Of a stretch of DNA of 64,000 bases, positions 41,842 to 56,684 are shown one piece after another (the first letter of the stretch is position 1; each line of letters starts with the position of its first letter). The position numbers and the translations under genes were made by a program. Location: NCBI GenBank assembly GCA_030833445.1, contig JAURHD010000003.1, positions 62,001-126,000 on the forward strand. Reading direction: 5' to 3'. This stretch comes from Cephaloticoccus sp. GTDB lineage: Bacteria > Verrucomicrobiota > Verrucomicrobiia > Opitutales > Opitutaceae. The notes below the pieces were generated by a model, which was not told where the DNA came from, ran no database searches, and worked only from the letters and a program-made list of their open reading frames with translations.

Positions 41842-42463
41842 GGGGATTGGACTTCATCTCACGGCCGACCGTCGTGGCGGGACCATGTCCGGGATAAACC
41901 GTGCTAGCGGCGGGCAGCGTATAGATCTGTTCTCGAATAGACCGTTCAAGGAGATCGAAATCGCCGCCAGGTAGATCGGTGCGCCCGATGCTCCCTTTGA
42001 AAAGAGCATCGCCGACAAAAGCCGCCGACATTGATTCGAAATAGAACAACACGTTGCCCGGACAATGACCCGGCACGTGCCGCACCGCAATGGAAAGTCC
42101 CAAGGCTTTCAATTGAGTGCCCTGTTCGACCCATTGATCCACCTTCACCGGCTCCAAGTTGAGCTCCATGTTCATGAACCGTTTCATGACTTCGGGGCTT
42201 TCGATGAGCACCTTGTCAGCGACGTGGGCCCGCACCGTCGCCCCCGTCGCCCGCACGACCTCTGCACCGCCTTGAGTGTGATCCCAGTGGCCGTGGGTCA
42301 GCCATAATTCCGTCAATTTGCAGCCATCCTTGGCCAATAGCGGCTGCACTTGGCTCCAGACCTCCCCCGGGGCATCAATCAAAACTGCATCTCCCCGTTT
42401 CGAATCGGTCAGCAGATACGCATTGGTTTGGATCATCCCGGCCGGCAGCACATACAAATTCAT
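41828..42463 (-). CDS. Metallo-beta-lactamase-fold hydrolase (glyoxalase II-like)
   Basis: From ATG 42463 the protein has 211 residues. The zinc signature is [15 protein letters not shown], followed by [31 protein letters not shown] and [13 protein letters not shown], the pattern of single-domain glyoxalase-II-like hydrolases (YcbL type). Likely substrate is a thioester such as S-lactoylglutathione, but this cannot be fixed. Open frame reaches 42568, but the longer start adds residues not seen in the family. It is divergent from leuB and overlaps ribD. Confidence 0.9.
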
Positions 42464-42554
42464 TGCTAACAGTCCATGCGTGATGCCCCGGCCCGCGCAA
42501 TCGCGAAAATTCCCCTTTCCCTTTCCCTCGGCCCTTGTTACGTCCCTGACTTCT

Positions 42555-43658
42555 ATGCAGTCGCTCAAGTTTGCTGTTCTGGCCGGAGACTATATCGGAC
42601 CCGAGGTCATGTCCGCCGCATTGCGCGTGCTGAAGCATGTGGCCGGGCAGGAAGCCCTCCGGCTCGACTTTACCGAGGCCGCGGTGGGCGGTGCGGCCAT
42701 CGACCAGTTTGGTGAGGCCCTTCCGGCCGCAACCGTGAAGATTTGTGAATCGGCCGATGCCATTCTCTTCGGTTCGGTGGGCGGCCCAAAATGGGAAAAA
42801 CTACCGACCAAGCAGCAGCCGGAACGCGCCGCCCTCCTGCCCCTGCGCAAGCACTTTACCCTCTTTGCCAACATCCGTCCAGGCTTGCTCTATCCCGAGT
42901 TGACGGATGCCTCTCCACTCAAGACTAACCGCATCGCCGACGGCATCGACATCGTTTGTATCCGCGAGCTGACCGGCGGGGTCTATTTCGGTCAGCCCAA
43001 GAGCACGACCACCCTGGCCGACGGTGACATCGAGGCCATCGACACCATGGTCTACCGCAAGAGCGAGATTGAGCGAATCACCGCCGTTGCCATCACCGCC
43101 GCCCGGGCCCGCGGCAAGAAGCTCTGCTCGGTCGACAAGGCCAATGTGTTGGAAACCTCTGTCCTCTGGCGCAAGACCGTCACCGACTATCTCGCCAAGC
43201 ATGCACCAGACATCGCTCTCAGCCACATGTATGTGGACAACGCCGCCATGCAGTTGGCCCGCGACCCGAACCAATTCGATGTATTCCTTACCGAAAATAT
43301 GTTCGGCGACATTCTCTCCGACGAGATGGCCGTGATCTGTGGTTCACTCGGCATGCTGTCATCCGCCTCGCTCGGTGCCGGCAGCAACTCCCTCGGCAAA
43401 CCCTTCGGACTCTATGAACCAGGCGGTGGCACCGCGCCGGATATTGCCGGCAAAAATCTCGCCAATCCCTGCGCCCAGATTCTGTCCGCCGCGCTCATGT
43501 TGCGCTATAGCTTTGGCTTGGACGCCATCGCCAACCGGATCGAAATCGCCGTGCGCCAGACGGTCACTTCCGGCACCCGCACGGGCGATATCGCATTTGG
43601 CAAGACCTCGGTCGGCACGATTGAAATGGCCGACGCCATCATCGCGAATCTGAACTAA
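42555..43658 (+). CDS. leuB: 3-isopropylmalate dehydrogenase (LeuB)
   Basis: LeuB oxidises 3-isopropylmalate with NAD+ in leucine synthesis. ATG 42555 gives 367 residues and the expected start ([20 protein letters not shown]); the frame is open from 42318 but the extra part is unlike the family. Motifs are [39 protein letters not shown] and the family signature [20 protein letters not shown] with [20 protein letters not shown] near the end. leuA, leuC and leuD are not in the window. Confidence 0.96.
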
Positions 43659-43713
43659 TGCCATTACTTCTGTTCGTCTTTTGGACCTTACTGGTGCTAA
43701 CCTAATCCCTTTC

Positions 43714-46464
43714 ATGACTTCCGCCCAGATCCGCCAGTCCTACCTCGATTACTTTGCCCAACAGGGCCACACCGTGGTCCCGTCCGCGTCGCTGCTGCCC
43801 GATTCTCCCGGATTGCTGTTCACCAATGCGGGTATGAACCAGTTTGTGCCCATCTTTCTGGGAGACAAGCAGCCCGACGTATCCACTTGGGCCGGGGCCA
43901 TTCCAAGCCAGGACACCCGTGCGGCCGACACCCAGAAATGCATTCGTGCGGGCGGCAAACACAACGACCTCGAGGATGTCGGCTTCGACACCTATCACCA
44001 CACGTTCTTCGAGATGCTCGGCAACTGGTCCTTCGGCGATTACTTCAAAAAGGAGTCGATCAACTGGGGCTGGGAATTGATCACCAAGGTCTGGGGCGTG
44101 CCGGCCAAACGGCTTTTCGCCACGGTCTATAAACCCGACAAGAGCAAGGGCGATCCGGCCGACTTCGACCAAGAAGCCTACGACATCTGGGCCACCATCT
44201 TCAAAAAGGAGGGACTCGATCCCGCCGTGCACATCGTCAACGGCAACAAGAAGGACAATTTCTGGATGATGGGCGACACGGGCCCCTGCGGTCCGTGTTC
44301 GGAGATCCATTTCAATCTCCTTCCCTCGGACGACGAAACCGCGGGCCGCAAGCTCGTCAACGATTCCAGCCCACGCTGCATCGAAATCTGGAATCACGTT
44401 TTCATCCAATTCAACGCCAATGCGGATGGCACCTTCTCGCAGCTCGCCGCCAAACACGTCGACACGGGCATGGGCTTCGAACGCGTCGCGGGCATTCATG
44501 CCACGACGAACGGTTTCAAGGACTTCACCAAAGATCCGTCGAATTACGCGGCGGATGTCTTCGCGCCGCTCTTTGCCAAAGTTTCCGCCCTTTCCGGCAA
44601 AACCTACACCGCCACCGTCCCAACCAAACGCGAAGGCCTGAGTGAACAGGAAAACACCGATGTCGCCTTCCGTGTCCTCGCCGACCACGCCCGTTGCGTA
44701 TCGTGCGCCATCGCCGACGGCATCATGCCCGGGAACGAGGGTCGCAACTACGTCATCCGCCGCATCCTCCGCCGGGGCATTCTCTACGGCACCAAGATCG
44801 GCCTGAAACCCGGATTCTTTGAGCAACTCGTCGCCCCGGTCGTCGAGTCCCTCGGTGCGGTCTTTCCCGAACTCCAACAGCAGCAGGAAATCATTCGGCG
44901 TGTCATCCGCAGTGAGGAGGAGAGCTTTGGACGCACGTTGGACAAGGGACTTCAGGTATTTGAGCAGAAGATGCAGTCTCTAAATACGAAAACTGCTAAA
45001 GATGGGACTTTGGAAACGGACAAAGTAGAAGTGAGATTTCTGTTTCCAGGTGATGCAGCTTTTCGACTCTACGATACATTCGGCTTTCCGCTAGATATGA
45101 CCGGCGTCCTTACCGCTGAGAGAGGACTCTCGGTAGACGAGGTAAAGTTCGAAGAATTGATGGAGGCTCAGCGCGAGCGCGGCCGGGCTTCCCAAAAGAA
45201 GGAAATTCTCGTCGCTGCGACGGAAGGAGAAACTTCCGATCTCAAAGCCAGCAAGTTTCTCGGCTACACCGAGACTGTCGCCAAGGCCGAATTGGTGGAT
45301 GTCGTTTCGGCGGACAAGGACACCTTTCTCGTTTTCGATCAGTCGCCATTTTACGCCGAGATGGGTGGTCAGGCCGGCGATACCGGCACGGCCCTCATCG
45401 GCGATAAACTGGTCCACATCGTGGACACGGTGAAGGACAAGGCTGGACGCCACCTTCACAAAGTCGCCGCCAAATCACCCGCAGTCGAAGTGGGCAGCCA
45501 TGCGGAACTCTCCGTCGATCTGACGCGCCGTCGTGCCATCTCCCGTCACCACTCTGCCGCGCACTTGATTCACTGGGCCTTGCGCAAAGTGCTCGGCACC
45601 CACGTCCGCCAGGCCGGCACATCCAAGACTCCCGAGCGCATGCGTTTCGACTTCTCGCATTTCGAGGCCGTCACCCACGCGCAACTGCAAGAGATTGAGC
45701 AGCTCATCAACGACAAGGTCATCGACAACGCAAAGGTCGAGTCCTACGAAACCGAATTCGACAAGAAACCGGCCGACACCCTCGCGTTCTTCGGCGACAA
45801 ATACGGCAAGATCGTCCGGGTGGTCGACATCGGTGGCTACAGCCGCGAGCTCTGCGGCGGCACCCACGTCACGACCACCGGTGAAATCGGCCTGATTCGG
45901 ATCGTAGCTGAGATGGCGATTGCCGCCGGCACCCGACGCATTGAAGCGGTCGCTGGTCAGGCCGCCTATACCTTTACCGCCGAACATGAAATCGCGCTCA
46001 AGACCGCCGGCGCGAAACTGAATGCCGGCCCCCATGACCTGGTGCAGAAACTTGATGCCCTGTTGGCGCACCAAAAAGAAATCGAGACCAAGCTAAAAGG
46101 CTTTGAACAAAAGGCCGCGGCCGGCCTCTCCGATTCCCTGATCGCCAACGCCGTCGAGAAAGACGGTTTGAAATTCATTTCAGCCGTCGTCGAAATCGAG
46201 TCACCGGAAGCGCTGCGCAATCTCGGATCCCAAACTCTGCCGAAGCTCGGCGAAGGGGTCGTGAAACTCGGCGCAATCTTTGGCGACAAGGCGACCGTCG
46301 TTGCGTTCTGTTCGCCGGCGGCAATCAAAGCCGGTCATCAGGCCGGCAAGATCATCGCGTCAATTTCCACCGCGATCGGCGGTAAAGGTGGCGGCAAGCC
46401 CGACTTCGCCATGGGTGGCGGCAAGGAAACGAGCAAACTGGCTGCAGCCTTAGACGAGGTCTGA
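43714..46464 (+). CDS. alaS: Alanyl-tRNA synthetase
   Basis: AlaS charges tRNA-Ala and edits mischarged tRNA. From ATG 43714 it has 916 residues; the frame is open to 43681 (TTG). Class II core motifs are seen in [35 protein letters not shown], then [20 protein letters not shown], and [14 protein letters not shown]. The editing site has [17 protein letters not shown] and [13 protein letters not shown], and the C-terminal part ends with [15 protein letters not shown]. Residues about 424-489 (bases 44985-45180) have clearly different codon use, with AGA, CTA and AAA, and lower GC than the rest. The stop overlaps the convergent sensor kinase gene. Confidence 0.96.
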
Positions 46465-49125
46465 GTCCGAGCGGCGATCACCAAGCCATTTAATAAGCAC
46501 CCTCAGGAGTTCGGGTTTTCGCACGGGCTTGCTGATGAAATCCACCATCCCCGCCGCAGTGCAACGCTCGCGATCCTCCAGCGTGGTATTGGCGGTGATA
46601 GCCACGATTGGTGGCGCGTCGCGCAAAGCCCGTTTGATCTCCCGGGTGGCCATGTGTCCGTCCATGACCGGCATGCGACAATCCATGAAAATGATTCGAT
46701 AGCCATGCAGCCGGGCCATGGCGACTGACTCAGCCCCATCAGACGCGAGATCGACCTGACAGCCCAATTGTTCCAGTTGTTTGGATATCACGAGTCGATT
46801 GATAGAATCGTCGTCGACCACCAAAACCCGCCCCCAAGTGGAATCGACCGGCAATACCGTGGGTGCAGCCGGAGTCAGATCTACCGTGACCGGTTTGGGT
46901 TTATTATTGGCTAATGCGGCCAACAACAAATCGGGATCCAAAATGGGCTTACGTAAAACAGCATGCACCACGAAATCGTCCGACGAAATATCCCGGTTGG
47001 ATCTTAAGGCAGCCAGAATCACCCGAAGTTTACCGGCGCGCACGGCCGCCCCAATCACGTGCCTCTGATCGGAAGACAACGCCACCGACTCATCCAACAG
47101 CAGGAAGCAAGTGTCATGGGAATACACACTCACTTCATGCAACCAACGAATAACCTTGCTAGGCACGTCGGTAAATTGCGCCAGATAGCCGCAGCGGGTA
47201 AACATCGCCACGGCGGACTCTGCCGCAGCAGCCGTATCATCCAGCACCATGACTTGTTCCGGGCGAAGGGGTCCGCCATAGGGCGGCAATGCTTCCATTT
47301 CCATTTCGAGTTCAAAGGAAAATACCGATCCTTTGCCCGGAACACTCCGCACGGAGATCGTGCCGTTCATTAGTTCCACCAGGCGCTTGCAAATCGCTAG
47401 TCCCAGCCCGGTGCCACCGTATTTCCGGGTGGTCGAGGTATCCGCCTGAGTGAAACGTTCAAAGAGTCGCGCCTGCACTTCCGGTCCGATACCTACTCCA
47501 GTATCCGTAACACTAAAACGCAGTTTGACGGAATTCTCTGCTTGATTGGTGGCGTTCGGAATGACCGTCACGCCAAGGACCACCTGCCCGGATTCAGTAA
47601 ACTTGACCGCATTGCCCACCAAGTTGAGTAAAATTTGCCTGAGGCGATCAGGATCTCCCCGCACCAACAAAGGAACTTCCAATGGAACCAACAGCACCAG
47701 CTCAATTCCCTTCGCAGTCGCACGCGGCACCAGCACTTCCAACACGTCCCGCAACGGTTGCGTCAGATCAAACTCAAGGCTCTCGATATGAATATGCCCG
47801 GCTTCAATTTTTGAAAAATCGAGAATGTCATTTAGCACGGCCAGCAAGGATTCGGCCGAGGCCCGCAAAGTCGTCAGGTGTTCCCGCTGTTCGCTGTTCA
47901 GGGCCATATCCAACAGCATGTCCGCCGAGCCGATCACCCCATTCAACGGAGTTCGGATCTCATGGCTCATCGTGGCCAAAAATTCACTCTTGGCCCGGTT
48001 AGATGAGGCAGCGGCTTCCATTTCATCTCTCACCCGCGCTGAATGAGCGCGTTCTTCAGACAGCATCTTGGCCTGGTGGAGTCTTTCGCGTTCACGATTA
48101 TCATGCCACCGGACCGCAAACCCCACCAATCCACCGGCACCGATGATTAGAATCGCCAAAACCAATGCCTTGAACCACCACGCTTGCCAGTAGAACGGCG
48201 TCACATCGATGACGACTGACGTTTCCGGCGTCGGCACCCCTTCTCGATTCACCGCCCTGACGTGGAACTTATACACCCCGGGTCGCAAATCCGGTAATCG
48301 TGCCACAGGTTCCACTCCGGCGTGCACCCAGCCAGTATCCACACCGTCCAGGCGATATTCATAGTTAATATCCTCCCCGTAGCCAAGACTGATACCGGAA
48401 TAGCGTATATTAACCCGCTGGGTGCCGGCTGGAACCATGACCGCTTGATTCCGATCATCCGGCCATGGCAAATGTTCATCACCCGCCCGAACATGCTCGA
48501 TGTGAACCTGGGGCACTACCGTCGAAACCTGCACCTGCTGCGGGTCGATTCTCACCAATCCTTTCAGGGTAGCGAACCAGAGCACCCCTGCACTATCGCA
48601 TAGTGCCATATTTTGAAAACCACCCCGACAAGTCGCGCTCTTCATGCCCTCACGACGATCAAAGACTTGCACCGACAATCTAGCTTGGGTGCCGGACGCC
48701 ACCGCATCTAGTGATTGTCGGGTAATTTTGATGATCCCCCGGGCAGACGAAGCCCAGATATCATGGTCCCTTGCCTCCACGAGTCCGACCAAATTTTCCC
48801 GAACCAAGCCGGCTTCGCGGCCGTAAACCACCCAACCCTTGTCGCTTTGACGCAGGATATTGCCTTCGAGCGTGGTAATCCAAAGTGCTCCCGCATGGTC
48901 CACGAAAAGATTACTCACCGTTCCGGGCAAATGACCGTCCAGAGCATCAACTAAAATGAATCCCGCCGAATCGTGGCGCCACAGTTTACCACTGCGACTG
49001 GCCACCCATAATTGACCCCGACCATCCTCAGCAAAGACATGATACGGTTCGTCCTGATCCCCACAGGGCACTTCGCGGAAGCGACCGTTTCCCGGCAAAC
49101 GATTCCACGTTCGGTGCCTATCCAC
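46450..49125 (-). pseudogene. Hybrid sensor histidine kinase, C-terminal segment of a frame-broken gene
   Basis: The open frame is 891 residues, but meaningful coding starts near base 49103. In order it contains the end of a Reg_prop beta-propeller ([36 protein letters not shown]), a Y_Y_Y domain ([18 protein letters not shown]), a transmembrane helix, a HisKA/HATPase kinase ([48 protein letters not shown]), a degenerate receiver-like domain ([13 protein letters not shown]) and a full receiver with [11 protein letters not shown]. It would sense an extracytoplasmic signal, often a polysaccharide fragment in this family. A single missing base near 49103 separates it from the next segment. Confidence 0.85.
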
Positions 49126-49748
49126 AAGCGCTGGGCGCGATCAAGATACAGCGAGAAAATAGTGTCTGATCCCAAAGTGGCAGCATCCCAGTTTTGCACT
49201 CCTGATTCGGATCGCAGGAATAATCCATCGCCATAAGTAGCCACCCACAGACCCACGCCGGATTGTTGCAATACCCCATGAACCCATGAGTGTTTGTTGA
49301 GTTGTTTTGTGGTTTTGAACTCTATGGCAGATCCGAAGTGGTGCTCATCAAAGGGCAATAACCCGCCGCCGTGGGTGGCAACCAGCAACTCGCCGGGTGA
49401 AGTTTCGATCACCGCATTGACCACCGGTTGTTCCAAACCCACCGCTTCATCAAAGGTCTTGGCTGATCGCGGACGAATCCGGGCCAGACCTCCCCCATTG
49501 GATCCAACCCATATATTCCCCTCACGGTCCCCACTGATACACAGTAACGCATTGTTCAACAACCCGTCCGCCATGGTGCACTCCAACCAGGTGCCATCAT
49601 TACGGTAGACGACCACCCCATTATGATATCCCGCCATCCATAAATTACCCCACTGGTCCTCGTGAAGTTTCACTGCTTCCTGGTTATGGTCAGCCGGCCG
49701 CTCGATGGTTTGCACCCATTCACCGTCGTGCCATCTACGGATGCGCAA
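48951..49748 (-). pseudogene. Hybrid sensor kinase, middle Reg_prop propeller segment
   Basis: This 265-residue open frame is the middle of the same sensor: repeats of the Reg_prop type, for example HEDQWGNLWMAGYHNGVVVY, ISGDREGNIWVGSNGGGLAR and [15 protein letters not shown]. After ERG the frame goes wrong; with one A added at about 49103 it continues as [13 protein letters not shown] into the C-terminal segment. Its start is not a true start: coding runs in from the N-terminal segment, with one G missing near 49759. Confidence 0.85.
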
Positions 49749-50428
49749 AGGACCGCCACCCAGATCCCTCCAGTTTTGGCCGCGGCAAACCCTTGCACTA
49801 CGAGTTCGCCCTTACCCCATTCCTCAGGGCTAAATGAATGCCAACTCTCATCGGTGAAATAGGCCAAATTACGGTCGGCCATCAGCCATATCTGATCGTC
49901 GGCATCAACCAACAAGCTCCATGGTTTTTGATTATTTGCATCAGGTGGTTGGGGCAGCCAGATTTCGAACCGGTCTCCATTGAGCCGCAGTAGTTTTTGC
50001 CCGACCATTGCAAACAAGCGGCCATGGGAGTCACGCGCCAATCCCGCTACCAGACCTTTGGGCACCCCCTCATCATCGCCATAATGACGCCACTTCTCTC
50101 CTTGGCGCCGAAAGATCCCATTGTTCGTGCCAACCCATAATACCCCGTCTGGATCAGCCAATAATTCCAACACCATAACATCTCTAAATTCCGGCGTCAC
50201 CACTTCATGGTCCGGTGAAAATCGGATGCCATTGAATCGGGTCAGTCCGGAAAACGATCCCACCCATAGATAACCATCCGGCGTTTGTGCCATGCACGTT
50301 ACCGCTACAAAAGGGAACGCATTATCTATATCCCAAGTGCGCAGCATATACTGTTGCGCAAACTGCCGGGAGTCGATACCGACCTCGTGGGCAAACCCGC
50401 TTACCACCACAAGCACGGTGAATAGCAT
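49670..50428 (-). pseudogene. Hybrid sensor kinase, N-terminal segment with signal peptide
   Basis: ATG 50428 gives a hydrophobic signal sequence (MLFTVLVVVSGFAHE) and the first propeller blades: QTPDGYLWVGSFSGLTRFNG, LADPDGVLWVGTNNGIFRRQ, LVDADDQIWLMADRNLAYFT. The frame is open up to 50788, but the extra part is unlike a sensor. The real coding frame ends at GGIW near 49762; adding one G gives GGGPLRIRRWHDGEW in the next segment. Repaired, the three pieces make one protein of 1326 residues (46450-50428). It is divergent from ispH. Confidence 0.85.
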
Positions 50429-50566
50429 GCCCCGGCTGTAACTGTATAATCGGGCCGCATGGGATTGCACAGATTCGTTTCTAAATAGAGAGCATGACGA
50501 ATCAAGCCCCTCATTCGGTAAATAGTGGATTGCGACTGAGGGCGTTCTGTCCACCTTGCATGAATA

Positions 50567-52303
50567 ATGTCTGATGCGTTTCCATCTCTTGTGTGCCTGC
50601 TGGCCTTTGACGGTTCCAACCGTATGGCGGTCCGTAAACTGGGTTCGAAAACGGGATTGGCCTTCACTGGTATCGATCTCGCCATGGCACTCGAGCGGCT
50701 GGAATCGGCGTTTCCCTCCCACACCAAACCGGTCGAATATTTCAAAGTGACCGCAGGCGGCCGCGCTTACTCGGTCTATTTCGCCCAAGCCATCGGCACT
50801 CCGCTCGATTCGGAAATCGAGCCATGGTCCATCGAAAATTTGACCCTCAATTCCGAACGTCTGGCCCCTTCACTCAAGGCCATCGTCGAGCAATTGGATC
50901 CCTATTTGATCGAAATCCCCTATCTCCATATAGGCGAAAACGATTTCATCTATAAATTCCGCCCGGAAAAGGAGCGCAACGCCGCCATCTATGCCGAGGA
51001 CCCCGTTTCAAGCACGCTGTATCAATCGCAATTGTGCACCCTCATCAAAGCCCAGGCACGCACGCATGAACGGACGGCCAGCCAGCCCGTCGCCATCAAT
51101 TTCGGACCGATCAGTTATCTCATTCCCAGTCACTTTGGATTCTGCCTCGGCGTAAAGAATGCCATTGAAAGGGCCTATGAAACCCTGTCGGCCAACCCAT
51201 CCCGCCGGGTCTTCATGTTATCGGAGTTGATTCATAATCCTTTCGTCAATGCCGACCTCTTGCGCCGGGGCCTGCGGTATCTGCAAACCGACAAAGGGGT
51301 TCCATATACGGTGGAGGGACCGGCCAGTGATACGAGCCAACCCAACCCACTGCTTTGGGATACGCTGACCCCCGATGATATTGTGATTATCCCCGCGTTT
51401 GGCGCCACGGATGAAGACAAACGCAAATTAGTCCGTAAGGGCATCGCGGTCTGCCAATATGATGCGACCTGCATGTTGGTGGAAAAAGTATGGAAAGCCG
51501 CCCGTAACTATGGCCAAGCCGGCTATACGGTAATCATTCACGGTAAAGCGGAGCATGAGGAAACCAAAGCCACGTTTTCGAATACCCGGCGATACGCACC
51601 GGCCATCATTGTCCGCGACCTGGAGGAGACCAAGCTCCTGTCCGGTTACATCACGTCCAAGGATTCGGCCGCACATGCTGATTTTTATCGAACATTTGCC
51701 GGCAAACATACCCCCGGCTTCGATGTTGAGCGTGATCTCAAGCGGGTGGCCGTGGTCAATCAGACCACGTTGCTGGTAAACGAAACCCGGGAAATCATCT
51801 CCTATTTGCGCGAGACCTACACCCAACTGCACGGTCCGGCCGGAGCCGAGCACGTCGGGGGCAGCGGCCGCACTGACACCCTGTGCTATGCCACTCAGGT
51901 AAACCAGGATGCGCTCGCCAAGGCTCTGGCCACACCGATTGACGCCGCATTTGTCATCGGGGGTAAAAATTCTTCCAACACCTACCAATTGTATCGTTTG
52001 TGCGAGCAGTCCTTGGGAACCCGCGCCTATTTCATTCAATCGGAGGCCAATATTCTTTCCTCCCGGGAAGTGGAGCATTACGTTTTCCCTCCTCATCATG
52101 ATGGCCGGCCGCACGGCATGATGATAAAGCGGGATTTGTGGTCTGATCTGACCAGTCCCAAGCGGGTGCTCATTACCGGCGGCGCCTCCTGTCCCGACGG
52201 TATTATCCAGCAGGTAATCGCCCGACTAAACGCCCTTTTCCCCGCCGCCGACCTGCGCAGTATGGCGACTATCCTTGAGGAATTTTCCAACACCACGGAC
52301 TAG
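50567..52303 (+). CDS. ispH: 4-hydroxy-3-methylbut-2-enyl diphosphate reductase (IspH), long cyanobacterial/plant-like form with N-terminal extension
   Basis: IspH makes IPP and DMAPP in the last step of the MEP pathway with a 4Fe-4S cluster. In this 578-residue protein the cluster cysteines are Cys193 (HFGFCLGVKNAIERAY), Cys302 (YDATCMLVEKVWK) and Cys542 (GGASCPDGIIQQVIARL); HNP at 223 and GKAEHEET near 329 are active-site histidines, and NQTT and GGKNSSNT bind phosphate. The DTLCYATQVNQDAL segment is the long-form hallmark seen in cyanobacteria and plants. The first 180 residues match no domain I recognise. Start 50567 is uncertain; ATG 50624 also fits. It is divergent from the sensor kinase. 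Confidence 0.93.
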   Translation: MSDAFPSLVCLLAFDGSNRMAVRKLGSKTGLAFTGIDLAMALERLESAFPSHTKPVEYFKVTAGGRAYSVYFAQAIGTPLDSEIEPWSIENLTLNSERLAPSLKAIVEQLDPYLIEIPYLHIGENDFIYKFRPEKERNAAIYAEDPVSSTLYQSQLCTLIKAQARTHERTASQPVAINFGPISYLIPSHFGFCLGVKNAIERAYETLSANPSRRVFMLSELIHNPFVNADLLRRGLRYLQTDKGVPYTVEGPASDTSQPNPLLWDTLTPDDIVIIPAFGATDEDKRKLVRKGIAVCQYDATCMLVEKVWKAARNYGQAGYTVIIHGKAEHEETKATFSNTRRYAPAIIVRDLEETKLLSGYITSKDSAAHADFYRTFAGKHTPGFDVERDLKRVAVVNQTTLLVNETREIISYLRETYTQLHGPAGAEHVGGSGRTDTLCYATQVNQDALAKALATPIDAAFVIGGKNSSNTYQLYRLCEQSLGTRAYFIQSEANILSSREVEHYVFPPHHDGRPHGMMIKRDLWSDLTSPKRVLITGGASCPDGIIQQVIARLNALFPAADLRSMATILEEFSNTTD

Positions 52304-52364: not shown

Positions 52365-53477
52365 TTAGAATTTGAAATTCAAGCCGGCCCGGAAGCCCTG
52401 CAATTTCGACAAGTCGACGTCGGTGGTGTAACTGGAACCATTTTCCGTGATAGTCTGCACGTAGGTCCCGGTGCTTTGATAAAATGCTCCCATATACAAA
52501 CCGGCCCGTTCTGTAATCAGATACTCCATCGTGGCATCCACATAGTAACCGGATAGATTGTTTCCCTCGGTCTCCGATACGGTTGTGACCAACGTATCAC
52601 TGGTGTCAGGCACCAAGGTCTGTTCCACGGAATAAGTAGTGCCTGAATAAACCAAGGCGGGACCACCACTGACCGTAAACCGGAGATTATCGGTGATCGA
52701 ATAGATCAAGGTCGGGCCCAAACGCATGGTCAGGTAGGTGCCCTTGAGATGCCAAAAATTAGTCACTTGGGTGTTGTTTGACGCGGTCGTGGTGGTGCGG
52801 CTGTCAGGTTTCCGGTCGAGGTAAACCGTCGTCTCGATGACATTGCCGTCCGCGTCGACCCCACTGGAAGGCGCCCCATAGGGCAATCCGGGCGGCAAAG
52901 TCTGGCCATCCAAGCTGTATTTATCGGTAACCGTAGTAATCGTCGCCAGCACACTGTCGCGAACGCTGGATTCGATTCCGTTGATGCCAACGCCAGCAAA
53001 TAGACGCCACTGCAGACGTTTGCTGATGTTTCCCATGTCACGGGACACCACCAATTCGGTGCCAAGACTCATACCAGGATCTTTGCTGCGCATGGCACTG
53101 TCAGTGATATCGGCCTTGTAAGTGTGAAAGGACATCGTGGCTCCATCATCCAATACTTGGCGCGCATCCGTATAACCCCAGGTATTGGTTTTACCATCAG
53201 TAGCTCCGTCACGTTGGTCACGCACCACCACGCCATCGTGGTAAGACCTCACCACATCGGTGGAAACCTCATCACTGATCGACTGGGAAGATTGGACCAA
53301 ACCCTGACCGGCGAAGGATGACTTGGTCCCATTGAGAGTGCGTGTCCCTACACTCAGCGAGAACTTTGGCTCTACGAAATAATCGTCGAAATTGAAGTTG
53401 GGAATGTCATCCTCGGGGTTCTGCGCGCGACTTAGGGACGCCAGAGTGAGGAAGGCCAAGAGGTAAAATTTCTTCAT
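52365..53477 (-). CDS. Outer-membrane beta-barrel-like protein of unknown function
   Basis: The 370-residue protein has a signal peptide (MKKFYLLAFLTLASLSRAQ) and a body of alternating amphipathic beta strands, rich in Thr, Ser, Tyr and Asp, with an aromatic C-terminus FRAGLNFKF typical of the last strand of outer-membrane barrels. Features such as LQWRLFAGVGINGIESS and TYLTMRLGPTLIYSITDNLR fit strands in a small barrel. No conserved functional motif was recognised. It is the last gene of the ParA-like cluster, 122 bases after the coiled-coil gene, so it may have its own promoter. Confidence 0.7.
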   Translation of the reverse strand: MKKFYLLAFLTLASLSRAQNPEDDIPNFNFDDYFVEPKFSLSVGTRTLNGTKSSFAGQGLVQSSQSISDEVSTDVVRSYHDGVVVRDQRDGATDGKTNTWGYTDARQVLDDGATMSFHTYKADITDSAMRSKDPGMSLGTELVVSRDMGNISKRLQWRLFAGVGINGIESSVRDSVLATITTVTDKYSLDGQTLPPGLPYGAPSSGVDADGNVIETTVYLDRKPDSRTTTTASNNTQVTNFWHLKGTYLTMRLGPTLIYSITDNLRFTVSGGPALVYSGTTYSVEQTLVPDTSDTLVTTVSETEGNNLSGYYVDATMEYLITERAGLYMGAFYQSTGTYVQTITENGSSYTTDVDLSKLQGFRAGLNFKF

Positions 53478-53491
53478 GTAGAGGTTACAGT

Positions 53492-53505
53492 GTCACAGGT
53501 GTGAC
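53492..53505. repeat. Inverted repeat upstream of the barrel protein gene
   Basis: GTCACA-GG-TGTGAC has perfect 6-bp arms and lies 14 bases before the start codon at 53477. It could be an operator. The arm orientation is the reverse of a CRP site, so CRP binding is not implied. Confidence 0.35.
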
Positions 53506-53599
53506 GGTATTAGCGGAAAAATGTTGCATAAAGATTTGTGTCGAAAGCCTCCGAGTCAATGGGAGATTCGGCCCGGCCGAGCGACCCTCCACCGGGTCA

Positions 53600-54286
53600 T
53601 TATTCGTTAAATTCGTCCCGCTGGGCGGCGGCATCATTTTCCGCCTTTAGGGCTGCCGCCGCAACCGGATCGATGGCTGCTTCCTGCTCCTTCAGACGTT
53701 TTTCCAGGGCCTTCAGTCCTTCGGCCTTATGTTCCAGCTCCGATTCCTTTTCCTGCTGGGCCTGAACTTTCTCAAAAAGGGTATTTTCACTGTCATCCAG
53801 GAATTGTTCCCGGTCCTTGATCTGTTGCTTGGCCTCCTTCAATGCGGCTTCCTGTTTCTCCAGTTCTGCCTTCAATTGCTCCAAGGCGGCCCGCTCTTCA
53901 TCGCTCATGCTGGTCTTGGCGGGGGCCTCCTGCTTCGTCGCGGCCAGCAGGCGTTCCCGAGCCATCAACAAGGCTTCCCCTTCCGCAACTTCACGTTCCT
54001 TTTCCTGCAGTCGGGCCTCGGCGTCTGCCACCGCCCGTTCCCGATCCGCCAGCATGACCTCCAATTGTCGCAGATTTTTCTCCAGTTCAGAGATCCGTTC
54101 CGCATCCAAAGTGGCCGGCTCACCCCAAGGAGTTCTGGTAGCCGACACAATTGCATTGATCGATTCCCGGGCCGCAGTGGTGGCTTCGGACACCTCCTGC
54201 AGGGAACGCACCGGAGTCCGTCGGCGTAAAGTTAAAGCGGGACCTTGAGCGGTCTTGGTCGGAAATTTAATGGGACTGTCCGGCAT
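53600..54286 (-). CDS. Long coiled-coil protein of unknown function
   Basis: The 228-residue protein has a short Pro/Arg/Thr-rich head (MPDSPIKFPTKTAQGPALTL) and then an almost unbroken Glu/Lys/Ala/Leu/Gln coiled coil from about residue 65 to the end, with heptad patterns such as ISELEKNLRQLEVMLADRER. There is no signal peptide or membrane helix. Cytoplasmic coiled-coil scaffolds next to ParA/MinD ATPases can serve as positioning adaptors; that role here is an inference from the position. It follows the 281-residue gene by 12 bases. Confidence 0.75.
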   Translation of the reverse strand: MPDSPIKFPTKTAQGPALTLRRRTPVRSLQEVSEATTAARESINAIVSATRTPWGEPATLDAERISELEKNLRQLEVMLADRERAVADAEARLQEKEREVAEGEALLMARERLLAATKQEAPAKTSMSDEERAALEQLKAELEKQEAALKEAKQQIKDREQFLDDSENTLFEKVQAQQEKESELEHKAEGLKALEKRLKEQEAAIDPVAAAALKAENDAAAQRDEFNE

Positions 54287-54298
54287 CTTGCCCTATCA

Positions 54299-55144
54299 TT
54301 ACTTGCCAAACAGTCGGCCGAACAACCCCTTTTTCTTGGGCTCCTCTTTGGGGGCCAGCCCTTTGACCAAAGGTTCAAGGATAGCCGCAACCCGCGTTTC
54401 TGCCTCGGGATTTTTCAATACCATCAAGGTGCGCCGCAATTCTCCACCTGAGGTCAGCTCCGATTTCAAGGTCTGCCATTCCTCCTTAAAACAGGTAAAG
54501 GCAGCCTGACGTCGTTCGAGCGTGTCCCCAGCGCGTTCGGCTTGCGCCAGACATTCGATCAGGTGCAGGCCTTTTGCCCCGGGACGATATGGGAGCACCT
54601 CGGTGAGCGAATTCTCATCCACATGAGAGAGCGCATTGAGCAATTTTCTAAAATCCCCGCCCACGATCACGTTTTGGGACATATTCTGAGCAAAACGGGC
54701 GAACTCACCCAAGGTGGACAAATGCTCCAAACCGCAAAATTCGCGGGTATCCTTGTTCAAGGCGGTCAATTCGATGGGGAAATCCTCAGGGATGCCCAAT
54801 TTCGCCATATTCTTGAGCAGCTGGTTATCGCGTTCAGCGCTAGCCTCGGTGTGCGTTACCATGTCACCGAATGGATCATCAAATGAAAGGGTATCCTTCA
54901 GGATTGATATGAGCAGATCTGCGTGATTCGGGTATCCCTTCAAAGTGAGCAATTCCCGCATTTCATCGTAGCCCAGGTCAATATAGGCGGCTGCATTTTC
55001 ATCCGCTCCCTTAATGGGCCAATCCGGGCCTTCCAAGTTCTGAGCCAAACTGCTCAGGGATGTATCGACCATGATGGATGTCGCGAAGGCCAAGCGCACA
55101 TCGTCCCAATCTTTGGCGGTATATTTAGAGGTGGATTCAGACAT
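54299..55144 (-). CDS. Conserved-looking cytoplasmic protein of unknown function, between ParA-like ATPase and coiled-coil genes
   Basis: From ATG 55144 the protein has 281 residues; the open frame to 55249 adds an unlikely head. It is mostly helical and acidic, with DWDDVRLAFATSIMVDTSLS at the start, GYDEMRELLTLKGYPNHADL in the middle, and a basic C-terminal end EPKKKGLFGRLFGK. That last amphipathic, Lys/Arg/Phe-rich stretch may bind membrane or the ATPase. No known motif is visible. It starts 19 bases after the ParA-like stop. Confidence 0.72.
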   Translation of the reverse strand: MSESTSKYTAKDWDDVRLAFATSIMVDTSLSSLAQNLEGPDWPIKGADENAAAYIDLGYDEMRELLTLKGYPNHADLLISILKDTLSFDDPFGDMVTHTEASAERDNQLLKNMAKLGIPEDFPIELTALNKDTREFCGLEHLSTLGEFARFAQNMSQNVIVGGDFRKLLNALSHVDENSLTEVLPYRPGAKGLHLIECLAQAERAGDTLERRQAAFTCFKEEWQTLKSELTSGGELRRTLMVLKNPEAETRVAAILEPLVKGLAPKEEPKKKGLFGRLFGK

Positions 55145-55163
55145 GAAAATTAAGTGGTTAGGG

Positions 55164-55808
55164 TTACGATGTAATGCCACCCATACGGATGATTTCGTCG
55201 GCAAGTTTACGGTAATCGGTGATGACGCTTTCCTGCTCATCACCGTCATTGTCCTGCGAAAGCATGGTCACCGGCAATCCCAGGGTAACGGCCCGACGCA
55301 CAACCATCGCGTCGCGAATCTGCGTTTGGAATATCTTCGCATCTGGGGAGACGCGCTTGGCGGCCTTGAATTGATTCATGCGCAATTGCATGCGCATTTT
55401 AGGCACTTCGATATCCACCCCGGTCTTGATCGAGTTGAAAACGACGCCCCGGACTTGGGCCGGCGGCCCCATCGCCGCGGTGCGAAAACTGGCAGACAAT
55501 TGATGGAACTTACCGAGTTTATCGACCAACAGGGTAAATCCGATCAAGCTGAGCGCATCCGGATTGGATGGCACGACAATCTCATGGCTGCTGAAGATCC
55601 CACATTGGGACGCCCGTAAAATATTGGGTGGGCAGTCAAAGAGGATGAAATCATATTCATTCTCAATCGCGGCGAGTTGCTGTTGGAAAATGAGATAATG
55701 CGGAAATTTGGGATCACCGGTATATTCGGCTTCAAGGTCCACCAGATTGAAATTGGTGGGCACAATATCCAAACCGGGCAGCACCTTCGCCCCCGACTTG
55801 TCCTCCAC
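55164..55808 (-). pseudogene. ParA/MinD-like ATPase, C-terminal segment of a frame-broken gene
   Basis: This open frame gives 214 residues with the typical later ParA motifs: LVDLEAEYTGDP, DFILFDCPPNILRAS (Walker B, switch II), VVPSNPDALSLIGFTLLVDK and VVFNSIKTGVDIE. The frame can be read further upstream as [18 protein letters not shown], ending beside the N-terminal segment at about 55860. The pieces overlap the ATPase P-loop segment by frame only after one or two bases are changed near the A/T runs at 55854-55865. Confidence 0.82.
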
Positions 55809-55851
55809 GACATCCCGGAAAACAATGTCTTCAATCCGGGCACTTCCCGGG

Positions 55852-56061
55852 TCAAATAGAGAAAATGGCGCCTTCGTTGGTCGAGTTGATCTTATTCCAA
55901 CGCTCCAGGCGCAAAAGCCAGATACTGGCGTTGGATTGTGTATCCAAATCGAACAGCAGGACCTTTTTGCCTAGTTTTGCGAGACTGGCCGCGGTGTTGA
56001 CGATTAGGGACGTCTTGCCGACGCCGCCCTTGTAGTTGATGAAGCTGATTTTACGCGCCAT
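55852..56061 (-). pseudogene. ParA/MinD-like ATPase, N-terminal P-loop segment
   Basis: ATG 56061 starts [18 protein letters not shown] with the deviant Walker A (KGGVGKT, Lys11 and Lys16), then [13 protein letters not shown]. After NEGAIFSI the frame meets a stop; one deleted or two added bases near 55854-55865 lets it continue as [13 protein letters not shown]. Repaired length is about 298-299 residues, normal for ParA/Soj proteins. No parB-like gene or parS-like site is seen nearby, so this is an orphan ParA-type ATPase. It is divergent from the GreA-like gene. Confidence 0.85.
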
Positions 56062-56204: not shown

Positions 56205-56684
56205 ATGACCAAAGAAGACCTCCGTCACCAAATTTTACGCCATCTGCAGGCCGAGCTCGATAACTTGATCAGAGGCGCCCAACTCGCGCACGATGAGGCC
56301 ACCAGCGAGGAAAGTCGGGCGGAGAATAAATACGACACCCACAGCCAGGAGGCGGCTTATTTGGCTGAAGGACAGGCTCGGCTTGCCACCGAAGCCAGTG
56401 AGGCAATCAGTTTATTCCAAACCCTAACGCTGCCCGCATACCATCAGCAGGACCCCATCGCGATCGGTGCGTTGGTTGAATTAGTCAGTGCAAAGGAATC
56501 GACTTGGTATTTCTTGGGTCCACGGGCTGGCGGTCTGGAACTTAAACTGGAAGATGGCCGCACCGCCCTATTAATCAGGCCGACATCCCCGATGGGACGG
56601 CAACTACTGGGAAAAATTACCGGCGATCAGGTGCAGGGAACGGGTCGGGACCGATCCCTGCACACCATCAGCCGGGTCGTTTGA
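56205..56684 (+). CDS. GreA/GreB-like C-terminal domain protein
   Basis: The 159-residue protein has an N-terminal helical hairpin-like part (about 1-80, rich in Glu, Ala and Gln) and a C-terminal FKBP-like GreAB domain: ALVELVSAKESTWYFLGPRA and LIRPTSPMGRQLLGKITGDQ. In GreA/GreB that domain docks on RNA polymerase and the hairpin enters the secondary channel. The hairpin tip lacks an obvious acidic pair, so it may be a regulator rather than a true transcript-cleavage factor. It is 143 bases from the ParA-like start and divergent. Confidence 0.8.
   Translation: MTKEDLRHQILRHLQAELDNLIRGAQLAHDEATSEESRAENKYDTHSQEAAYLAEGQARLATEASEAISLFQTLTLPAYHQQDPIAIGALVELVSAKESTWYFLGPRAGGLELKLEDGRTALLIRPTSPMGRQLLGKITGDQVQGTGRDRSLHTISRVV

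Follow-up and report, generated by a model that had tools for sequence, protein, structure and literature searches.

Introduction

Protein-cargo systems such as McdAB, ParC/PpfA and FlhG use a ParA/MinD ATPase without ParB, together with lineage-specific partners, and the PomX/PomY/PomZ system of Myxococcus xanthus combines a ParA-type ATPase with two partner proteins. One of these is coiled-coil-like with a basic N-terminal segment, according to PMC13170346. ParC/PpfA and FlhG are treated as ParB-less ParA/MinD cargo systems in PMC10241942, where many ParA/MinD ATPases are said to be called orphans, with partner proteins too diverse to recognise. Here, we describe a ParA-type ATPase encoded in a stretch of 64 000 nucleotides from Cephaloticoccus sp. 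(the window; GenBank assembly GCA_030833445.1, contig JAURHD010000003.1, positions 62 001–126 000). Together with a 281-residue protein (B) and a 228-residue protein (CC) it forms one conserved three-gene, operon-like unit that probably acts as one. We read the unit, with evenly balanced confidence, as a lineage-specific spatial positioning system of the ParA/MinD type; it was met here in no genomes but those of the order that we take to be Opitutales, and no description of it was found in the open-access literature.

The unit resembles McdAB, ParC/PpfA and FlhG in having a ParA/MinD ATPase without ParB and lineage-specific partners, but the neighbours identified in the window include no gene for carboxysomes, chemotaxis or flagella, and its distribution does not follow that of FliG or of bacterial microcompartment (BMC) shell proteins. 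It resembles PomXYZ in having two partners, one of them coiled-coil-like with a basic N-terminal segment; this is a likeness of features, and the unit differs in belonging to another phylum, in being dispensable across relatives and in that the structure search gave B no match to HEAT proteins.

A conserved three-gene unit

The genes of the locus are as follows.

55164–56061, minus strand: gene for a ParA-type ATPase whose subfamily occurs in Opitutales, frame-broken near 55857, with Walker A and with AAA_31 matches in both pieces.
54299–55144, minus strand: protein B, 281 residues, an all-helical partner with a basic C-terminal tail (open reading frame, AlphaFold2 model).
53600–54286, minus strand: protein CC, 228 residues, charged and helical, probably coiled-coil, with a conserved basic N-terminal motif.
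52365–53477, minus strand: outer-membrane-barrel-like protein (OMP), 370 residues, with a signal-peptide-like N-terminus and a C-terminal Phe; the barrel is judged from sequence only.

The open reading frames agree with the four consecutive minus-strand genes of the initial annotation, with ParA frame-broken, and the gaps of 12–19 bases that it gave between the first three genes measure 19 (ParA–B) and 12 (B–CC); CC and OMP are separated by 122 bases.

For comparison, we used 80 fetched loci containing B (80 kept of 153 found) and a set of 57 related genomes, that of the window included, whose B neighbourhoods were scored too; the two sets overlap in part (for example, L067 and G025:C42) and are thus not independent. 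In all 77 loci where no contig end intervenes, ParA is found upstream of B, no more than 1.2 kb away and on the same strand. CC lies within 0.9 kb downstream of B in 77 of 79 loci, with median spacings of 23 bp for ParA–B (67 loci) and 6 bp for B–CC (74 loci). The order and strand of ParA–B–CC, repeated across dozens of loci, go beyond chance. B and CC diverge faster (mean distances of 0.44 and 0.47, respectively) than ParA (0.24). The distances of all three covary beyond those of IspH (LytB), the single control gene (partial r of 0.53–0.72 over 35 loci; permutation p of 0.001, the least attainable).

The ParA-type ATPase

A deviant Walker A motif (KGGxGKT), here KGGVGKT and invariant in 18 homologues, and the ParA/AAA_31 domain place the protein in the ParA/MinD (A/D) ATPase family. 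Intact orthologues are mostly about 295–300 amino acids long, and the ATPase motif is intact in most relatives. In the window, KGGVGKT and residues 1–69 lie in one frame (56061–55852) and the remainder in another (to 55164), with AAA_31 matches of ∼1e-15 on each half. Alignment with intact relatives shows a two-base loss near 55857, leading to a TGA at 55854–55852; the matched pieces are separated by 46 nt in the window versus 48 nt in L027, L028 and most others. A programmed frameshift was considered and rejected, as the positions of the breaks differ among loci; three of them (in the window, G002 and G025) fall within a few codons of residue 65. As two further large genes nearby are each split over several frames, the break in the window may be decay or a mis-assembly. 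These genes, at 46483–50485 (minus strand) and 42277–46452 (plus strand), match intact proteins of 1,378 and 1,393 amino acids in relatives, and the minus-strand gene is a hybrid histidine kinase by sequence.

The closest sequence relatives of known structure in the PDB are Soj proteins (chromosomal ParA), with which the ATPase shares the KGGVGKT motif. It differs from 12 Soj-like proteins of these genomes in that the Soj segment IPRxVRLSEAPSFG is replaced by IRDAxVVRRAVTLG and in having an extra basic stretch. Conserved Lys/Arg residues occur in the C-terminal third, and inspection of the alignment showed no conserved basic amphipathic C-terminus of the kind of the MinD membrane-targeting helix. 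A PADLOC match to PDC-M28B (1e-7) is read as P-loop similarity, and NCBIfam matches were all below the cut-off. Four loci (L190, L191, L192 and L193, from G020, G027, G016 and G038, respectively) carry a related ParA (E from about 1e-92 to 1e-106) beside which B was not recognised, perhaps a sister group with other partners.

Relation to ParB and Soj

As the initial annotation had it, there is no ParB-like gene close by: the ParB domain is absent from the eight neighbouring proteins or pieces scanned, and the domain scan of B and CC was equally negative. Adjacency and distribution give no sign of the parB that a ParABS system would have next to, or as partner of, its parA. The ATPase could nevertheless be a second chromosome- or replicon-segregation ATPase acting with a distant ParB; Soj is its closest relative among solved structures, and the genome of the window has a ParB gene with no ParA beside it. 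Against this, a Soj-like ATPase (AAA_31 E below 1e-48; the 12 aligned proteins are of this kind) is present in 53 of the 57 relatives, including the genome of the window (G000:C33:196662), and ParB is found in 50 of the 57, 28 of the 33 without B and 22 of the 24 with B. Because a Soj-like ATPase is so widespread and ParB is kept without B, our ATPase is probably not the partner of chromosomal ParB, as judged by adjacency and distribution, and we regard the segregation explanation as very unlikely. The pairing with a distant parB in relatives that the initial annotation had named as evidence against a separate module is disfavoured on the same grounds, and its description of an orphan ParA-type ATPase, here with two conserved undescribed partners, holds by distribution.

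The ParB and Soj-like genes of the genome of the window lie on different contigs (L189 in G000:C3 and L236 in G000:C33, respectively), and in relatives on a single contig (G011, G021 and G040 among them) the two are likewise far apart.

Protein B

The AlphaFold2 model of B is all-helical (mean pLDDT 90.1, pTM 0.67, 78 sequences), with a low-confidence tail. Searches of the PDB with the whole model gave no convincing fold match (Foldseek best E of 1.6, VIA-align best Z of 3.2), and neither did residues 1–117 alone (model mean pLDDT 73.7; best E of 2.7 and best Z of 3.7); the fold comparison covered the whole model and this segment. Sub-threshold similarity to T2SSF, the GspF/PilC cytoplasmic domain, was seen over residues 21–114 (20.3 bits versus a cut-off of 25.2), and 21 of 78 B homologues match T2SSF at E ≤ 0.1. 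Weak armadillo-repeat profile matches to PDB entries were also seen (E of 0.005–0.03 for the best six). The fold searches support neither similarity, but either may be genuine. An internal duplication was looked for and none was found. No curated family matched B or CC above its cut-off, plasmids gave no match to B, and neither PADLOC nor NCBIfam matched B or OMP. The suggestion that B is a helix-hairpin-helix protein like the C-terminal domain of the RNA polymerase α subunit was rejected (hhalign probability 0.9–1.6% over 14 columns, with a shallow alignment for that domain).

The tail of B had been described as basic and amphipathic. It is basic, with a net charge of +2 to +6 over the last 18 residues in 78 homologues, but the amphipathic part gained no support: the hydrophobic moment of the window protein is reached by a fraction of 0.37 of shuffles.

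The Min system bears on a further explanation, that the unit positions the division site in place of a missing Min system, much as PomXYZ. MinC (MinC_C) was found in none of the 57 relatives, and the same search was positive in six of 14 control genomes, so there is no MinCDE system by this measure; the make-up of the unit, an ATPase plus two partners with a basic segment at the N-terminus of the coiled-coil-like one, and the weak armadillo matches of B would also fit. However, 33 of the 57 relatives lack B, as do 25 of the 45 with a completeness of 90% or more and a contamination of 5% or less, so that the unit is dispensable for division. For the model of B, moreover, neither Foldseek nor VIA-align gave a convincing match to HEAT or armadillo proteins, a negative that leaves room for such a fold. 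We consider a role in division unlikely.

Protein CC

The N-terminus of CC has a conserved PxLxLPRRR and then a second segment, SPFExSEASAxARESI; after these come a long charged helix and the conserved stretch LFEKVQAQQEKE. A hydrophobic-x-hydrophobic pattern followed by two basic residues is present at the N-terminus in 65 of 75 proteins, and the net charge of the first 45 residues has a median of +3 (range −3 to +6). PMC13170346 describes the known activators of ParA/MinD ATPases as poorly conserved, with a short N-terminal peptide containing essential basic residues in common. A periodicity of ∼3.5 residues has p = 0.03 against shuffles for the window protein and p < 0.1 in nine of 20 proteins, that of the window included. 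PADLOC matches to the LmuB and DruC models are read as coiled-coil similarity, and NCBIfam matches of CC were all below the cut-off. Of the earlier description as a coiled-coil protein, the long charged helical part stands, while the heptad periodicity lends the coiled coil modest support.

Distribution and partners in other families

The B profile matches 30 of 288 genomes of the phylum, the source genome included, all of them Opitutales; among the 57 relatives, again with the source genome, B is present in 24. Of the nine genomes in the genus of the window, three (G000, G006 and G008) have a whole B. A contig end cuts B in G001, the copy of G002 is broken, and no B was found in G003, G004, G005 or G007; G003, G004 and G008 are less than 90% complete. 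The module is accessory, with losses in several relatives. The complete triad occurs in families f1, f20 and f21 (with a weaker CC in f21, E about 1e-13), and families f11, f22 and f3 have the ParA–B pair with no recognised CC. G303 has three B matches: L197 has ParA–B without CC, L198 has ParA plus B and CC, each split over two open reading frames, and the third, L199, is taken up below.

In four loci of f11 and f22 (L196, L201, L203 and L205), a Hanks-type kinase lies upstream of ParA–B, with a protein of ∼240 amino acids between kinase and ParA in all four; homologues of this protein (47–48% identity) lie on the opposite strand beside the f20 triads L047, L208 and L209. The kinase suggests an alternative in which the unit is a signalling or regulatory switch: the nucleotide state of ParA would act on B, with a Ser/Thr kinase in control in some lineages. 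A weak match to the kinase (28% identity), some 3 kb upstream of the f1 triad L212, would agree with this. Apart from that match, neither the kinase nor the ∼240-residue protein had any other match among the 137 loci or stretches searched, the window included, and a partner of the coiled-coil-like kind is more usual in positioning systems. A switch seems to us quite unlikely.

The OMP gene and other neighbours

The initial annotation had counted OMP as a fourth member, proposed that all four genes be checked for co-occurrence in the same order, and offered a positioning or an envelope-organising module. A four-gene envelope module draws some support from the OMP homologue found within 4.5 kb of B in 46 of 76 loci. 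Among the 21 genomes covered by the OMP search, however, OMP is kept in eight of the 16 family members without B (G004, G005, G007, G010, G018, G021, G026 and G030). In G004 (L221) a ParA remnant is directly followed by OMP, with B and CC not recognised there, and in G002 ParA and B are broken and OMP is full length; OMP mostly tracks its neighbour LytB. Since it is absent beside many triads and retained where B is gone, OMP is a syntenic neighbour outside the module, and a four-gene envelope module is highly improbable. The conserved order thus holds for the unit of ParA, B and CC and fails for OMP; the one feature found that might tie it to the envelope is the tail of B, as a possible membrane tail. 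What survives of the earlier proposal is a three-gene ParA unit, for which we infer positioning.

In the product of the LytB gene (IspH; 50567–52303, plus strand, 578 amino acids), the LYTB domain is preceded by an N-terminal extension of about 187 residues, and long homologues occur in many relatives. On the other side, 56205–56684 (plus strand) encodes a 159-residue protein with a sub-threshold match to the GreA/GreB C-terminal domain, transcribed away from ParA; in 57 of the 74 loci that were scored, a homologue is found on the opposite strand, upstream of B.

Proposed role

In the positioning system that we propose, stepping from conservation to function, the ATP-bound ParA dimer would bind the nucleoid; the nucleoid is favoured over the membrane because of the missing C-terminal membrane helix and the conserved Lys/Arg residues of the C-terminal third. 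CC would build an elongated scaffold and its basic N-terminal segment (PxLxLPRRR) may stimulate the ATPase, making CC a probable ATPase-activating scaffold. B would be an adaptor that connects ParA and CC either with a cargo, accessory and not essential, or with the membrane by way of its basic aromatic tail. More tentatively, and at somewhat less than an even chance, this is a lineage-specific A/D-ATPase system in which two partner families without a recognised fold, possibly both activators as in PomXYZ, help to position a cargo, and it is modular in f11, f20 and f22; there, the ∼240-residue protein (f11, f20 and f22) and the Hanks-type kinase (f11 and f22) would join a ParA–B core.

Several observations weigh against a ParA-driven positioning system. 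ParA is disrupted in six of 74 loci (eight of 76 at first, before two loci broken by runs of N were dropped), usually with B intact, which is awkward for a strictly ParA-driven machine. The control genes (B, GlgB, LytB and GreA-like) are disrupted in three of 196 cases (Fisher p = 0.015 versus ParA), or in one of 194 after two N-holding genes were dropped (p = 0.002), in a test that ignores relatedness and favours B, as the loci were fetched with B, and with runs of N not sought in intact genes. L114 and L120 have ParA–B without CC. Two extra copies of B stand without ParA: L204 of G216, where none was recognised over the 17 kb taken, and L199 of G303, a weak B match. The basic motif of CC is missing in ten of 75 proteins by the pattern used, so that another role is possible, and its heptad signal is modest. 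Finally, B shows no association with FliG (12 of 24 genomes with B, 15 of 33 without), PilM (16 of 24 and 26 of 33) or BMC shell proteins (14 of 24 and 13 of 33). Because these do not track B, flagella, PilM-type pili and microcompartments were rejected as general cargo, and the module is accessory.

To our knowledge, the spatial cell biology of this phylum has been little studied. Likely partners of an orphan ParA can be named here from conservation alone, and, as several relatives have lost this accessory module, genomes that carry it can be compared with those that lack it as a way towards the cargo.

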